Shown here: positions 1-4,359 of the stretch, in pieces
Position numbering within the stretch: position 1 is the first letter of the stretch
How the letters are laid out: every line of letters starts with the position of its first letter
Origin: Anaerovibrio sp. JC8
GTDB lineage: Bacteria > Bacillota > Negativicutes > Selenomonadales > Selenomonadaceae
NCBI RefSeq assembly: GCF_002100115.1
Contig: NZ_ANBM01000013.1
Coordinates: forward strand, 1 to 56,628
Length of the DNA: 56,628 nt
Reading direction: 5' to 3'
Position numbers and translations under genes: made by a program
The notes under the pieces: model-generated
The model's input: the letters and a program-made list of their open reading frames with translations, nothing else
What the model was told of the DNA's origin: nothing
The model's database searches: none

Positions 1-28
1 TTGGCAAATAAGGTCTTTTTTTTTTATA

Positions 29-922
29 TCATTTTTGGTTGTCGACGGCATTTTCCAGCAGGGCCTTTTGGGCGGTAATATGTTTTTTTATGCTTTCGTA
101 GTCACCCTTTTCCAACAGGGCGTATATCAGGCGGTAGCTGTGCCGCATATCGTGGCGCAGTACGGAAAGTGCCTTTTCGTTCTCCTGCATTATCTGTGTA
201 TGCTCCTTCAGGTTTTGACGCTGCCTTGTAAGTCGTTCCCTGTTTTCCATCAGCTTTTTATGCTGCTGTTCTTCATTGGAGTTGTAATGAACGATGGAGT
301 ATATAACGAAGAAGAACAGAGGAATGGCCAGCCGGCTTAATCGGTCGCTTAATTCCGGCAGGAAGGTAACATTGGAGATGGAAATGATACAGCCCACATA
401 GACGGAAAGAGGCAAAACGGCTATATACCAGCGGAGCTTGGTGTCGGAAACCAGCTGGTCGTCAGGCAAGAGGCTGGTGAAGAGCCGGTTTCCCCAAGGA
501 TATATCAGCAAAAAGAGGAATATCCATATAACAAGCTCCTGGGGCAGCAATATGGCTGTCATGGTAGAATGCATCACAGTAAGGATAATTCCGGAGGTGG
601 AATGGAGCATAAAGGCGTAGAGAGCCTGAATACCCAATACAAAGAGGTGCTGCGGCAAGCGATGGGGTATATGAATTATGGAAATAATCAGATATGGTGT
701 CATGCCAAAGAAAAAGAGAAGCTTGTATGTAACCATGGTTATTCCCAATGAATACGTGACAGCAAAATTAATCGACAGGCCGAAAATACTCCATATAAGT
801 AAATTACGCCACATGGCAACAGAATCTTTTGGGTCAATAACCTGGCTGAAGGGCAAATACCGCAGGTAGGCTCCAGCCAGCTGTATTATGGTGACTAAAA
901 GGGCGTAGGAGAAAGCTAGCAT
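29..922 (-). CDS. AgrC-like sensor protein with His box but no ATPase domain
   Basis: This 297-residue protein has about six hydrophobic segments over residues 1-210, then a charged coiled coil (about 215-250), then a GHKL-type phosphoacceptor helix containing LRHDMRHSYRL. The expected HATPase domain is absent because the frame ends right after the second dimerisation helix. Its ATG lies inside the last codons of the upstream kinase gene (7-nt overlap), so the two are probably translationally coupled. Known AgrC/ComD-type kinases carry the same N-terminal membrane sensor and a C-terminal ATPase of about 130 residues. Here that domain is missing, either truly or because of a frameshift near an A10 run just past the stop. 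Only 28 bases remain to the window edge, so the two cannot be told apart. A partner LytTR response regulator, if any, would lie outside the window. Confidence 0.7.
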   Translation of the reverse strand: MLAFSYALLVTIIQLAGAYLRYLPFSQVIDPKDSVAMWRNLLIWSIFGLSINFAVTYSLGITMVTYKLLFFFGMTPYLIISIIHIPHRLPQHLFVLGIQALYAFMLHSTSGIILTVMHSTMTAILLPQELVIWIFLFLLIYPWGNRLFTSLLPDDQLVSDTKLRWYIAVLPLSVYVGCIISISNVTFLPELSDRLSRLAIPLFFFVIYSIVHYNSNEEQQHKKLMENRERLTRQRQNLKEHTQIMQENEKALSVLRHDMRHSYRLIYALLEKGDYESIKKHITAQKALLENAVDNQK

Positions 923-2256
923 GACTTATTATCCCTCCAGTACAAGAATAGATTAACCTGATTATTTTTCTGGGTAAAGGTGGCATAGCCATGGTATTTT
1001 TCCAAAAACAATTTCAGCGAAACCATGCCAATGCCGTGGCCCTGTCTGGTGGCACGGGGCAGTCCTTCCTCATCCAGATCAATAGGCGTGGAGCAAGGAT
1101 TGGTTATGGATATTACACATTGCTGGCCATTATGCTGTATTTTCAAAGTTATTTCCAAATCCTCATGGCCTTTATCCTGCTCCTTAATGCAGGCCTGAAG
1201 GGCATTTTCCAGCAGATTTGACAGCAATATGCTCAAGTCATTTTCATCAGTAGTGAAATTGGATGGCAGATTTACCTTGGGAGAAAAATTTATTCCCAGC
1301 TTTTGGGTACGGGAATTATAAATGGAAATAGCCGTGTTGATAATCGGTGAGTCGGAATAGGAAAGAATGGCGGCAGAGGGCAACTTTTGCTCCTGCTTTT
1401 GAAGAAATGCCTTTATCTCGTCACCCTTTTGGGCCTCAATCAGGTCCAGCAGACGGTCATAGCTGGCAAGGAAAGTTTGGCGGAACTTCTTGATCATGGT
1501 CCTGTTTTTTTGCAGCATAAGGCGGTGCTCCACCAAGGAAACCATCTCGTTGGACAGCTGCTGATTATCCATAAGAAGCAGCTTTTTGTCCTTGTACTGC
1601 CTTGCTGCAATTTGTACATAGTGATAGCAGCACAGGAAAACCAGAGGAAGATAAAAGCGGGACAGCCTTTGCTCCCACGAGGATAACAGGGTATTGTCAA
1701 TGGTCAAGACTATGTGAGCAATAAAAATGGACAGGGGCAGGCTGGCAATATAGAGGCCAATGTTTTTATCCCGAAAGAACTCATCAAGAGGCAGCAGACG
1801 GGAGAAAAAGTGCCGTTCTATTGGAAGCAGCAGAATAAACAGCAGTATATTCATCAAGGTAAAAATAAGTGTGGTCAGTATATAATGCATTTCATTGAAA
1901 AAAGTAACCAGAATAAAGCTGCTGAGAGTATACAGGAAAAAGCTCCAGATGCCCGACATTCCCAGTACAAAGACATGAAGGGAAATATGGCGGGGGATGG
2001 CCAGCAGAAATATGAGGAAGTAGGGAATCCACCCTAGAATAAGCAGGGTTTTATAGGTAATGGTGCTAAGGACCAAATCGTTTAAAATATCATAATATAT
2101 AAAGCAGCTGAGGGCTGCAAAGCCTGCTACGGAGCACCATAGACGCTGAATATCCTCGCTGTTCATTTCCTTTTTGAAGGCCAAAAAACGGAGATATGCA
2201 TGGGCACTCTGGAGCACTGCGATGGAAATACATATTGGAATAATAAGGTTATTCAT
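916..2256 (-). CDS. AgrC-type GHKL sensor kinase lacking the canonical His
   Basis: This 446-residue protein has a six-segment membrane sensor (about residues 1-210), a coiled coil, a dimerisation region (about 250-290) and a GHKL HATPase_c_5 domain (about 320-440). The N-box LLENALQAC and G-box GHGIGM are intact, so ATP binding is likely. In the His-box region the sequence is FRQTFLASYDRLL; aligned by eye with the downstream sister protein (LRHDMRHSYRLI), the phosphoacceptor His-Asp is Gln-Thr. It heads a two-gene minus-strand operon with an ACGAGG-like ribosome site. Family knowledge suggests peptide or small-molecule sensing at the inner membrane. The loss of His suggests it phosphorylates its partner or another protein. 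Confidence 0.75.
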   Translation of the reverse strand: MNNLIIPICISIAVLQSAHAYLRFLAFKKEMNSEDIQRLWCSVAGFAALSCFIYYDILNDLVLSTITYKTLLILGWIPYFLIFLLAIPRHISLHVFVLGMSGIWSFFLYTLSSFILVTFFNEMHYILTTLIFTLMNILLFILLLPIERHFFSRLLPLDEFFRDKNIGLYIASLPLSIFIAHIVLTIDNTLLSSWEQRLSRFYLPLVFLCCYHYVQIAARQYKDKKLLLMDNQQLSNEMVSLVEHRLMLQKNRTMIKKFRQTFLASYDRLLDLIEAQKGDEIKAFLQKQEQKLPSAAILSYSDSPIINTAISIYNSRTQKLGINFSPKVNLPSNFTTDENDLSILLSNLLENALQACIKEQDKGHEDLEITLKIQHNGQQCVISITNPCSTPIDLDEEGLPRATRQGHGIGMVSLKLFLEKYHGYATFTQKNNQVNLFLYWRDNKSC

Positions 2257-2337: not shown

Positions 2338-2380
2338 AAAAATCGACCACTTTTTGCAAAAATCGACCACTTTTTGCAAA
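2338..2380 (+). promoter_or_regulatory. Perfect 20-bp tandem direct repeat, candidate operator
   Basis: The unit starting AATCGACCAC (2341-2360) is repeated exactly at 2361-2380, and the three preceding adenines extend the match to 43 bp with period 20. It ends 4 bp before a plausible -35 box. Two direct repeats about two helical turns apart next to -35 are what LytTR (AgrA/ComE) response regulators recognise (9-bp repeats, period about 21). Its position beside AgrC-like kinases fits. The binding protein is inferred. Confidence 0.5.
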
Positions 2381-2504: not shown

Positions 2505-3158
2505 ATGATGAAAAAATTGCTGTTAGGGTTGGTGGCCTTGATTGCCATTTTCGCTATCGCAGGATGTGGCACCGAGAAACCAAAAGACAGCGCAGACAAG
2601 GCTGTTTTAGGTTATTCCGAGATAATGGCCTACGGTGTATCAGATAGCATGGCAGCTACTGGTATGACCAAGAAGCAGGAGGAAGAAATTCAGGAGGCGG
2701 TAATTGGCGATTTGTTGAAGTCCTTTGCCCAGTTCCCACTGAATGATGCAAATGTTGAAAATGTAACTGCTTCATATATCACCAAGATGAAGGCAGCTAT
2801 GCAGATCCAGACCAAGGTTAAGAAGGATGATGCTGAGCATCCTGTAGTTGAGGTCACTGCCAATGTTATTGATCAGGCAGGTGCTGATAAGCTGGCTAGC
2901 ACTAGTGAGGATATTATTGCTCTTGGTGTTGTATTGGGTGCCCTGCAGGCTAATGGCTATACTGTAGAGCAGTTCAAGCAGGATCCTGATTTCCAGAAGG
3001 CTACTATTGAGTGCATTGATAACTACATCAACGCTATTCCACTTAAGATGGGCCAGACCTATGAGTGCAAGTGTGAAATCGTTAAGGGTGACGATGGAAA
3101 GACTTATTGGGCACCAGTTGATGTTGATGGCCTGAAGAAGTTTGTAAACGGTTTGTAA
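2505..3158 (+). CDS. Secreted lipoprotein of unknown function
   Basis: This 217-residue protein begins with a lipoprotein signal peptide ending in AIAGC, so Cys21 should be lipidated. The mature part is hydrophilic and mostly helical with one short beta-rich stretch (about residues 100-125). It resembles in style the small DUF5105-like lipoproteins of Firmicutes, but I cannot confirm that family. A GGGAGGA ribosome site precedes ATG-ATG. It is followed 67 nt later by a tiny secreted protein with no terminator between them, so they probably form one transcript. The direct repeats upstream make it a likely target of a quorum-type regulator. Confidence 0.8.
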   Translation: MMKKLLLGLVALIAIFAIAGCGTEKPKDSADKAVLGYSEIMAYGVSDSMAATGMTKKQEEEIQEAVIGDLLKSFAQFPLNDANVENVTASYITKMKAAMQIQTKVKKDDAEHPVVEVTANVIDQAGADKLASTSEDIIALGVVLGALQANGYTVEQFKQDPDFQKATIECIDNYINAIPLKMGQTYECKCEIVKGDDGKTYWAPVDVDGLKKFVNGL

Positions 3159-3225
3159 TTCTGTGAGACACTATCATGGTATGTAAGTGAGGAAAATTTT
3201 TTGATAATTGAGAGGAGATAATGAT

Positions 3226-3426
3226 ATGAAAAAGTTTGGTATGATTTTGGCAGCTATGGTTTTTGCTTTGGGAACTCAGATGGTAAGTGCAGCTTCCTTG
3301 GACTGCAGTGCAACTACTTCCAATTACACTTTGATGGATGAAGAGGTTACCCTTATTGTTGATGAGCCTGTAGAGTCCGGCGATATTCTCGTTGATGAGG
3401 ATGGCGGCGTTTGGGAAGTACAGTAA
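3226..3426 (+). CDS. Small secreted acidic protein
   Basis: The start is ATG at 3226, preceded by AGAGGAGA at good spacing; an upstream in-frame codon at 3208 lacks such a site. The product is 66 residues, with a signal peptide of about 22 residues ending in VSA, and an acidic mature part of about 44 residues with a single Cys. No family is recognised. It shares a transcript with the upstream lipoprotein and is closed by a strong terminator. A role as an exported signal or periplasmic modulator would be speculation. Confidence 0.65.
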   Translation: MKKFGMILAAMVFALGTQMVSAASLDCSATTSNYTLMDEEVTLIVDEPVESGDILVDEDGGVWEVQ

Positions 3427-3546: not shown

Positions 3547-4359
3547 ATGGAAATGCTACAGAAAGCACTTGATTGGAAGCATACCCAGAAAATCATTACC
3601 TTTGTTATTATTTTAAATGCAGTTGTATTGGGTATATTGACAGACAGGTCATTGACAGCGGAACAGGTTTATCTTCTGGAGGCCGTGGATAAGGCTTGTT
3701 TGGTAATATTTGTAATAGAGCTGGTGGCCAAGCTGTTGGTCTATCGGCGGAATTTCTGGTCAGATGCCTGGAATATTTTTGATTTTGTTGTTGTGGCCAG
3801 CTCCATAATCTTTATTTCTTCCAATGTATCTATTATACGAGCATTTCGTATTTTTAGATTGTTGAAGGCCTTGGCAGAATTTCCAGAGCTTCAGATATTG
3901 GTTTCCGCCATGTTAAAGGCCATACCTAGTATGTCCTGGGCATTGGTACTTTTGTTTATTATATTTTATATTTTTGCAGTTTTCGGCAGCGCACTGTATG
4001 GTGACACCTTCCCTGAGTTGTTTGGTGGTGTTGGCGGATCCATGTTCACCTTGTTCCAGGTCATGACCTTTGAATCCTGGGCAACCGCAGTGGCCAGACC
4101 GATAATGGAAATACATCCTTTTGCATGGGTTTACTTCCTGATATTCATTCTCCTTACTTCCATTACTTTGCTGAATGTAATGGTAGGTATCGTGGTAGAG
4201 GCTGTGGGTACTATTTCTGAGGCCGCCAAGAAAAAGCAGGCTGCCAAGGAGGCTGAAGAGGCAAAGGCCGCAGGATATGAAGCCGATGAGGTGGAAGAAG
4301 AAATTCGTAAGCATTTTGAACAAATTGAAGAATTGCTGAGGGAAAGACGTTCATCGTAA
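3547..4359 (+). CDS. BacNav-type voltage-gated sodium channel
   Basis: This 270-residue six-transmembrane channel subunit would act as an inner-membrane tetramer. S1 (about residues 17-33), S2 (about 47-66) and S3 (about 72-90) carry the acidic and Asn residues of the voltage sensor. S4 carries charges every third residue at R98, R101, R104 and K107. S5 and the pore follow; the selectivity filter is TFESW (174-178), versus TLESW in NaChBac, so E176 is the ring glutamate of Na+-selective channels. S6 spans about 193-217. The tail (about 225-268) is a charged coiled coil, as in BacNav tetramerisation domains. It is a single gene flanked by terminators. Na+ selectivity is inferred from family. 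Confidence 0.88.
   Translation: MEMLQKALDWKHTQKIITFVIILNAVVLGILTDRSLTAEQVYLLEAVDKACLVIFVIELVAKLLVYRRNFWSDAWNIFDFVVVASSIIFISSNVSIIRAFRIFRLLKALAEFPELQILVSAMLKAIPSMSWALVLLFIIFYIFAVFGSALYGDTFPELFGGVGGSMFTLFQVMTFESWATAVARPIMEIHPFAWVYFLIFILLTSITLLNVMVGIVVEAVGTISEAAKKKQAAKEAEEAKAAGYEADEVEEEIRKHFEQIEELLRERRSS

Follow-up and report, generated by a model that had tools for sequence, protein, structure and literature searches.

The window analysed here, a stretch of 56,628 nucleotides, is the entire contig C13 of the genome of the rumen bacterium Anaerovibrio sp. JC8 (2.68 Mb, 33 contigs), whose closest named relatives are A. lipolyticus DSM 3074, A. lipolyticus LB2005 and Anaerovibrio sp. RM50 (Selenomonadaceae, Negativicutes). 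At its left end, two overlapping genes on the minus strand, A and downstream of it B, each encode a predicted polytopic membrane sensor followed by part of a histidine kinase, with the ATPase domain residing on A and the phosphoacceptor histidine on B. The features of this locus are:

916..2256, minus strand: gene A, putative catalytic subunit of 446 residues, with predicted polytopic membrane sensor, His-less DHp and intact GHKL ATPase (open reading frame, Pfam, AlphaFold2 model)
1366..1563, minus strand: DHp-like hairpin of A, about residues 232-297, its length kept and its phosphoacceptor gone (alignments, model helices)
1477..1479, minus strand: codon of A for Gln260 in the phosphoacceptor-His column, followed by Thr (alignments)
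919..1359, minus strand: GHKL ATPase domain of A, about residues 300-446 (Pfam, alignment)
1201..1218, minus strand: N-box NLLENA of A, residues 347-352 (translation, alignment)
1024..1041, minus strand: G-box GHGIGM of A, residues 406-411 (translation, alignment)
916..922, minus strand: overlap of 7 nucleotides between the end of A and the start of B (open reading frame coordinates)
29..922, minus strand: gene B, putative phosphoacceptor subunit of 297 residues, with predicted polytopic membrane sensor and DHp, without ATPase domain (open reading frame, Pfam, AlphaFold2 model)
47..238, minus strand: DHp hairpin of B, about residues 229-292 (alignments, model)
152..154, minus strand: phosphoacceptor His257 of B in R-H-D-M-R-H, invariant across 9 aligned rows (alignment)
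1..25, no strand: terminator between B and a convergent response-regulator gene, one arm and T-tract, the second arm being the end of contig C17 (contig-end comparison)

Complementary losses in a conserved gene pair

The division of the kinase between the two proteins is evident from their domains. In A, HATPase_c_5 (E 3.7e-14, 52.9 bits against a cut-off of 22) and HATPase_c are the only Pfam domains above cut-off, and a Pfam search of B gave no ATPase match and nothing above cut-off, the protein ending after its DHp hairpin. His257 of B is found in the context S-V-L-R-H-D-M-R-H, where H-D is kept but the +4 position is H rather than N or T, and the same alignment column in A reads K-F-R-Q-T-F. 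An identity of about 29% through sensor and DHp (residues 12-296 of A) shows that both share a common membrane-sensor plan. A sequence-only reading of this DNA had already described A as retaining N- and G-boxes with Gln-Thr in place of His-Asp, B as retaining RHDMRH without an ATPase domain, and the pair as overlapping by 7 nucleotides on a shared sensor plan; all of this is confirmed, including the alignment made by eye, which computed alignments reproduce. No NCBIfam family scored above cut-off for A, for B, for B′ of a second locus described below, or for two related proteins (B of L040, and L045), and a plasmid search with A gave distant matches only, in four records.

AlphaFold2 models of the single chains contain several long N-terminal helices in both putatively polytopic proteins. 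The model of A (mean predicted local distance difference test score 82.2, predicted template modelling (TM) score 0.53) finds as its best match in the PDB the cytoplasmic kinase of Staphylococcus aureus AgrC (6e52; E 6.1e-8, TM score 0.52 by target length, root mean square deviation 10.7). With the model of B (mean 84.1, predicted TM score 0.67), the fold search returned 64 matches at E ≤ 10 and none at E ≤ 0.001 and is uninformative for this protein. The DHp hairpin retained in the His-less A would fit a role in dimerisation.

The position of B at a contig end, beside a run of ten A, had left open in the sequence-only reading that its ATPase was lost to a frameshift. This explanation is contradicted by the orthologous B proteins, which comprise 292-297 residues within contigs, and by what lies behind the gene. 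There, the orthologous neighbour is a convergent LytTR response regulator, which in six other genomes carrying the pair (locus 1; G008, G015, G013, G011, G009, G004) is 242-244 residues long and which in A. lipolyticus, the one tested with Pfam, contains Response_reg and LytTR domains. In the JC8 genome (G000) the regulator is encoded at G000:C17:26-751, 25 nucleotides from a contig end, and is 79% identical to that of A. lipolyticus. The end of C17 (...AAAAAAAAGACCTTATTTGTCAG, reverse strand) pairs with window positions 1-25 (TTGGCAAATAAGGTCTTTTTTTTTT) in what reads as a single terminator hairpin, and the A10 run is its tract. That this hairpin is halved between the ends of C17 and C13 explains why the assembly broke here and why a run of ten A is present. 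Left of position 29, the terminator and the convergent regulator leave no space for an ATPase domain.

The locus-1 pair is present in seven Anaerovibrio genomes including that of the window, with the same 7-nucleotide overlap throughout, and B in the six others is 60-82% identical and located inside contigs. A conserved histidine, which would have contradicted the reading of A as His-less, was not found among its orthologues: the five closest in Anaerovibrio carry Q, a sixth (G004, L039) keeps Q in a gene broken into two overlapping frames, and a more distant one in G010 has H in the altered context N-H-N. Ratios of nonsynonymous to synonymous substitution rates (dN/dS; Nei-Gojobori, median pairwise, pairs with dS < 2.5) are 0.074 for the sensor (9/15 pairs), 0.113 for the DHp (12/15) and 0.137 for the ATPase (15/15) of A, and 0.129 for the sensor (15/15) and 0.080 for the DHp (13/15) of B, which indicates purifying selection on both proteins and on all domains of locus 1.

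Recurrence and history of the split

The pair described above is one of two in its genome, where HATPase_c_5 matches twice at E ≤ 0.001, both times in an A-type gene followed by a His-only partner. At the other place, locus 2 (G000:C3), a 442-residue A′ without the histidine is followed, again with a 7-nucleotide overlap, by a B′ of 100 residues, and the response-regulator gene is divergent and upstream of the pair. B′ consists of a hydrophobic N-terminal stretch, by eye resembling one transmembrane helix, and a DHp hairpin with R-I-L-R-H-D-L-R-H-H-Y; as judged from its sequence, the phosphoacceptor subunit of locus 2 has also lost the polytopic sensor. For this locus few pairs are unsaturated, with dN/dS of 0.183 for the sensor (2/6 pairs), 0.181 for the DHp (2/6) and 0.119 for the ATPase (3/6) of A′, and 0.13 for B′ (1/6). 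In a survey of 16 genomes of the genus, HATPase_c_5 matched 21 times, 14 of them in the A member of a locus-1- or locus-2-type pair, and among the remaining seven, those at G008:C25 (L099) and G015:C5 (L098) have R-H-D. In a genome without HATPase_c_5 match, an open frame of 34 codons (G002:C100:10880-10981, L088) matches the end of B′ and is possibly the remnant of a lost split kinase.

Profiles of B′ matched 101 of 189 genomes of the family and profiles of B 89 of 300 genomes of the class, in each case including ordinary complete kinases. The loci compared are part of the places in these 101 and 89 positive genomes and favour short open frames, and pair counts drawn from them are not unbiased frequencies; the surveys of the own genome (2/2) and of the genus (14/21) are less biased in this respect. 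Seven duplicate sequence rows were removed, and fragments and antisense reads, among them L075 (a frame-broken copy), L079, L089, L090, L098 and L099, were kept out of the tables. Starts of open frames were set mechanically, making some overlaps too long (e.g. L052, L070, L081, L084), and to count as a partner, a gene on the same strand had to overlap or to lie within 60 nucleotides. By this definition, 46 of 49 His-bearing proteins without detectable ATPase domain have an adjacent partner, in a set that includes L166, itself frame-broken, and L168, whose 460 residues contain an ATPase region that went undetected. All 46 partners lack the histidine and all 46 carry the N-box Asn. His-less rows (n=57) adjoin a His-bearing partner in 50 cases and contain the N-box Asn in 54. 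Complete kinases for which no partner was seen number 28, a few of them near contig ends; every one has the N-box Asn (28/28) and, by definition of the class, the histidine, and L129 and L137 each deviate at a single G-box glycine. A LytTR-type response regulator is encoded within 1.5 kb in 38 of the 49 cases, and 37 of these 38 regulators lie on the opposite strand.

The comparison reveals INTERMEDIATES and reversed roles: in seven pairs the His-bearing copy is still full-length and its ATPase is damaged, either by loss of the N-box Asn (L040, L085, L141, L167) or by an altered G-box (L087, L094, L097), and the partners of these copies display various stages of His loss. Pfam found no ATPase in the damaged copies of L040 and L085. 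We have placed such pairs on a sensor-only tree (232 columns, 101 of 126 rows) from which near-copies and the long branches present in an earlier quick tree were dropped and for which the B′ proteins are too short. In scoring roles, the partners of L040, L085 and L087 were counted as catalytic despite their histidine, and two rows (L042, L143) that lack the histidine and have a decayed ATPase were given no role. Among 65 members of Selenomonadaceae-type pairs, gene position requires a single change, second genes being separated from first genes with support 99/97.8, whereas the role, catalytic or His-bearing, requires four; the role label was fixed beforehand and the position label conceived after the tree was seen. 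A single clade of the 25 His-bearing rows versus the 38 catalytic ones is rejected (log-likelihood difference 121, p of the approximately unbiased test 1.29e-7). The truncation that defines B requires six changes on the tree, at least five of them forced by well-supported branches.

In Anaerovibrio and its kin, catalysis is assigned to the first gene and the histidine is found in the second. The reverse order is found in nine of 14 role-assigned pairs of genus g13, here called Quinella or the Quinella group (L062-L068, L072, L076), and also in L087 and L141, the other five g13 pairs (L060, L070, L074, L094, L097) having the order of Anaerovibrio. A separate clade contains both members of further pairs (L057, L156-L163 and the decaying L166-L168) from families f15 and f4 and from genus g11 of the own family. 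It thus seems that Anaerovibrio and many genomes of the Quinella group divided the products of an old tandem duplication in opposite directions, the simplest account being duplication, formation of a heteromer and subsequent reciprocal loss in either direction. We think it probable that an AgrC-like kinase duplicated once in tandem and gave rise to a heteromeric receptor, which then degenerated reciprocally and oppositely between lineages, with a separate further case in Negativicutes and the 100-residue anchor with DHp as its extreme.

Mechanism and alternative explanations

Collectively, the conserved and recurrent complementary losses, the neighbouring regulator, the purifying selection and the opposite roles, all read from sequence, make it very likely that A and B are the halves of one AgrC-like kinase that would function as a heteromer only, in which A phosphorylates His257 of B and B passes the phosphate to the LytTR regulator, and which arose by tandem duplication and reciprocal loss. 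From these observations we infer the formation of the heteromer, the direction of phosphotransfer, the identity of the regulator and its DNA site. In the proposed mechanism, both membrane sensors would meet via their DHp helices, and upon a signal the ATPase of A would bind ATP and phosphorylate His257 of B in trans. From phosphorylated B, the phosphoryl group would move on to the receiver domain of the neighbouring LytTR response regulator, whose gene is on contig C17 in this genome, and this regulator may then act at tandem repeats ahead of its targets. Such a receptor could have originated from a tandem duplication of a histidine kinase that formed a heteromer, where each copy then lost the function supplied by the other. 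Opposite roles derived from one ancestral duplication would be hard to explain unless the subunits complement each other, which supports the heteromer. Of the obligate heteromer with trans-phosphorylation put forward in the sequence-only reading, the complementary losses have thus turned out to be conserved and recurrent, and the trans-phosphorylation remains a proposal with FasB/FasC as precedent. The response regulator, the second split locus, the spread across Negativicutes and the role reversal were beyond the view of that reading.

Several observations weigh against this interpretation. Three of the 49 His-bearing proteins are without intact adjacent partner, one at a contig end (L073) and two next to broken partners (L157, L168), and seven of the 57 His-less rows are without a His-bearing neighbour, with the three aligned G-box glycines complete in just 48 of the 57. 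In 11 of the 49 cases no response regulator was found within 1.5 kb, and in five of these, the window included, the pair or B reaches to less than 400 nucleotides from a contig end. The damaged ATPase of L097 is still recognised above the Pfam cut-off (25.6 bits, cut-off 22), and the catalytic partner keeps a histidine in three of the seven intermediate pairs (L040, N-H-N; L085, R-H-D in R-H-D-L-K; L087, S-H-E). Two tandem pairs, L042 (5909-8577) and L143 (1694-4284), have no phosphoacceptor histidine in either member, and a related His-less copy at a contig end (L043:281-1618) has a decayed ATPase; some duplicates therefore do not resolve into a working split, and in these a third subunit may perhaps be encoded elsewhere or the proteins may have a non-kinase role. 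Finally, the loci were chosen via B-like matches, and lone A genes would be under-sampled outside Anaerovibrio.

That B is instead an accidental truncation, by frameshift, assembly break or pseudogene formation, and A a decaying pseudokinase, might be suggested by the contig end and the A10 run and by broken copies in relatives (A in L157 and L168, B in L166, and A of L039 in its two overlapping frames). We nevertheless regard it as exceedingly improbable: for locus 1, a frameshift or contig-edge artefact is ruled out by the near-constant length of B in orthologues inside contigs and by the junction with C17, which places the response regulator right behind the shared terminator, decaying pseudogenes are ruled out by the dN/dS values of all domains, and the truncation itself recurs on the tree. 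Improbable too is a role of B as phosphorelay intermediate that is loaded by another kinase or receiver rather than by A, in analogy to Spo0B, a DHp-type phosphotransferase without ATPase activity whose relay needs separate receivers. Such a role would agree with the missing ATPase of B and with a weak SPOB_a match in its DHp (15.2 bits, E 0.017), which distinguishes B from Spo0B by remaining below the cut-off of 28.1 bits. However, A without its histidine could not start a relay, no free receiver gene was seen beside locus-1 pairs, an A-type gene retaining the N-box Asn is adjacent in nearly all cases (46/49), and in relatives B descends from full-length histidine kinases with decaying ATPases.

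It is also improbable that A is a regulatory ATP-binding partner controlling a phosphatase activity of B, with the response regulator loaded by another kinase or a small phosphodonor. B keeps the H-D of its motif, with H in place of N or T at +4, and the His-bearing subunit of CheA3/CheA4 is also the phosphatase (PMC3591291). In contrast, the N-box, the G-box and the selection on the ATPase of A fit a catalytic role, and the own genome contains no HATPase_c_5 match beyond the two split pairs in a survey limited to this kinase family. A final alternative concerns the history only and is compatible with the proposed mechanism, namely that recombination swapped the cytoplasmic halves of tandem paralogues and thereby generated the opposite roles. 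To such a swap the sensor tree would be blind, and the backbone of the ATPase-domain tree (146 columns) is too poorly supported to tell it from opposite losses. Still, this possibility appears to be the lesser one, since a decaying ATPase is found on the copy about to become B in both gene orders (second in L040, L085, L094 and L097, first in L087 and L141) and since the ATPase tree keeps the catalytic domains of one order apart from those of the other, without intermingling.

Candidate targets, neighbouring genes and known systems

Upstream of A, the window contains a potential site of action of the regulator and two genes on the opposite strand:

2344..2370, minus strand: tandem direct repeat GTGGTCG-N13-GTGGTCG, 20-bp period, 27 bp; candidate site of the LytTR regulator, with putative binding (alignment, pattern searches)
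2505..3158, plus strand: divergent lipoprotein-like gene of 217 residues with the repeat upstream; probable target (open reading frame; A. lipolyticus orthologue without Pfam match)
3208..3426, plus strand: small secreted-protein-like open reading frame (A. lipolyticus orthologue without Pfam match)

The repeat (GTGGTCGATTTTTGCAAAAAGTGGTCG) occupies the region that separates A from the divergent lipoprotein gene. Aligned sequences show it conserved in the window, in A. lipolyticus and in RUG13065 and RUG13183; RM50 has undergone a concerted change of both copies, and a diverged form is found in G010 (L040). A gapped pattern found two other places with identical letters in the own genome, as many as a reversed control pattern (2 matches), and these precede proteins of at least 2054 and of 879 residues with autotransporter-like N-termini. 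A fuller pattern with up to two mismatches detected 16 sites in seven of the 16 genus genomes, compared to none with its reversed control. All seven genomes carry locus 1, and at this stringency no such repeat was found in G010 or in the eight genus genomes in which locus 1 was not found. Ten sites lie outside locus 1: eight were judged to precede autotransporter-like genes, a term used here by eye for an N-terminal extended-signal-like sequence combined with length, one is at a contig end, and the remaining one (G008:C8) is beside a copy of the small secreted-protein gene and a 312-residue exported-like protein. Pfam at E ≤ 0.01 found nothing in three autotransporter-like proteins, of which the largest was searched in its first 1000 residues. 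The shared repeat suggests autotransporter-like targets and likely marks a regulon under the response regulator that the split kinase would serve and that would bind there. As the surroundings of the sites are also alike, copied promoter cassettes are possible. Repeat sites include L178:5708-5734 and L179:5516-5542 and others in L187, L188, L189, L192, L182 and L190.

Other neighbours recur as well. The small secreted frame, with a conserved acidic C-terminus (EPVESGD..VDEDGDVWEVQ), is found beside most locus-1 pairs, with 64-81 residues in L034-L037, 69 in L040 and 151 in L039, and was not seen in L038. Together with a clostripain-family protease, assigned as Peptidase_C11 by Pfam in L034 and by likeness elsewhere, it recurs beside some kinase loci (L034:1745-4236, L037:3032-5332, L045:3336-5522), and the two are possibly a peptide signal and its processor. 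At 3547-4359 the window encodes an Ion_trans channel (PF00520) of 270 residues, which by likeness is also found beside pairs in L036, L039 and L041. A protein of about 555-567 residues with ILQLRTSSNKSLTSS is encoded behind the response regulator (L034:8383-10050, L035:3664-5331, L037:9284-10243, L038:4102-5805); its copy in L034 gave no Pfam match.

Histidine kinases are in general described as homodimers. Here, a family of membrane-receptor kinases seems to have been repeatedly turned into an obligate two-gene heteromer, with intermediates kept and roles reversed between lineages. If true, this would constitute a natural repeated experiment in subfunctionalisation, in which the sensing and the catalysing subunit are separable by genetics, and provide a handle on why cells split kinases, be it for asymmetric sensing, ultrasensitivity or insulation, and on whether autophosphorylation in AgrC-like kinases proceeds strictly in trans. 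Annotation by domains would record a dead kinase (A) and a 100-residue fragment (B′), whereas together they look like a complete, selected system.

The AgrC/ComD family is characterised by a polytopic N-terminus, an HATPase_c_5 domain and a LytTR regulator. The pair resembles it in the HATPase_c_5 domain of A, in the adjoining LytTR regulator and in the first structural match of A, and differs in carrying histidine and ATPase on two chains instead of one. An agr-type peptide system with AgrB was considered and rejected, as AgrB (PF04647) found no match in the own genome, in a search whose control matched one of 14 genomes, with none above cut-off. In the window, phosphoacceptor and ATPase reside on separate co-encoded proteins, as in a split kinase, which is an already known kind of system (CheA3/CheA4, PMC3591291; FasB/FasC, PMC12675982). 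SMART counts cited in the former list 1556 of 42417 HisKA proteins without HATPase (PMC3591291). In CheA3/CheA4 of Rhodobacter sphaeroides, the catalytic domain and the phosphoacceptor are similarly distributed over two mutually dependent proteins that serve one response regulator (PMC3591291). These, however, contain the CheA domains P1, P3, P4 and P5 and are bound to the cytoplasmic chemotaxis cluster, in contrast to the AgrC-like membrane kinase with LytTR regulator described here, and in our Pfam searches no CheA domain (Hpt P1, P3 dimerisation, P5) passed the cut-off in A or B. In searches of open-licence literature, we came across no publication describing a fully split pair of AgrC-like kinases, its recurrence in Negativicutes or reversed roles, which is a weak negative. 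The nearest experimental precedent for trans-phosphorylation is FasB/FasC-FasA of group A Streptococcus, likewise two adjacent polytopic genes resembling histidine kinases with one response regulator, where bacterial two-hybrid assays detected a heterodimer and no homodimer (PMC12675982). His246 of FasC is needed and its kinase domain dispensable, and the ATPase of FasB is thought to phosphorylate FasC (PMC12675982). Yet FasC retains its kinase domain and FasB histidines in its DHp (H241, H284), whereas in the pair described here the ATPase has been deleted from B and the histidine is gone from A, most of the sensor has been deleted from B′ of locus 2, and the roles are reversed between lineages.

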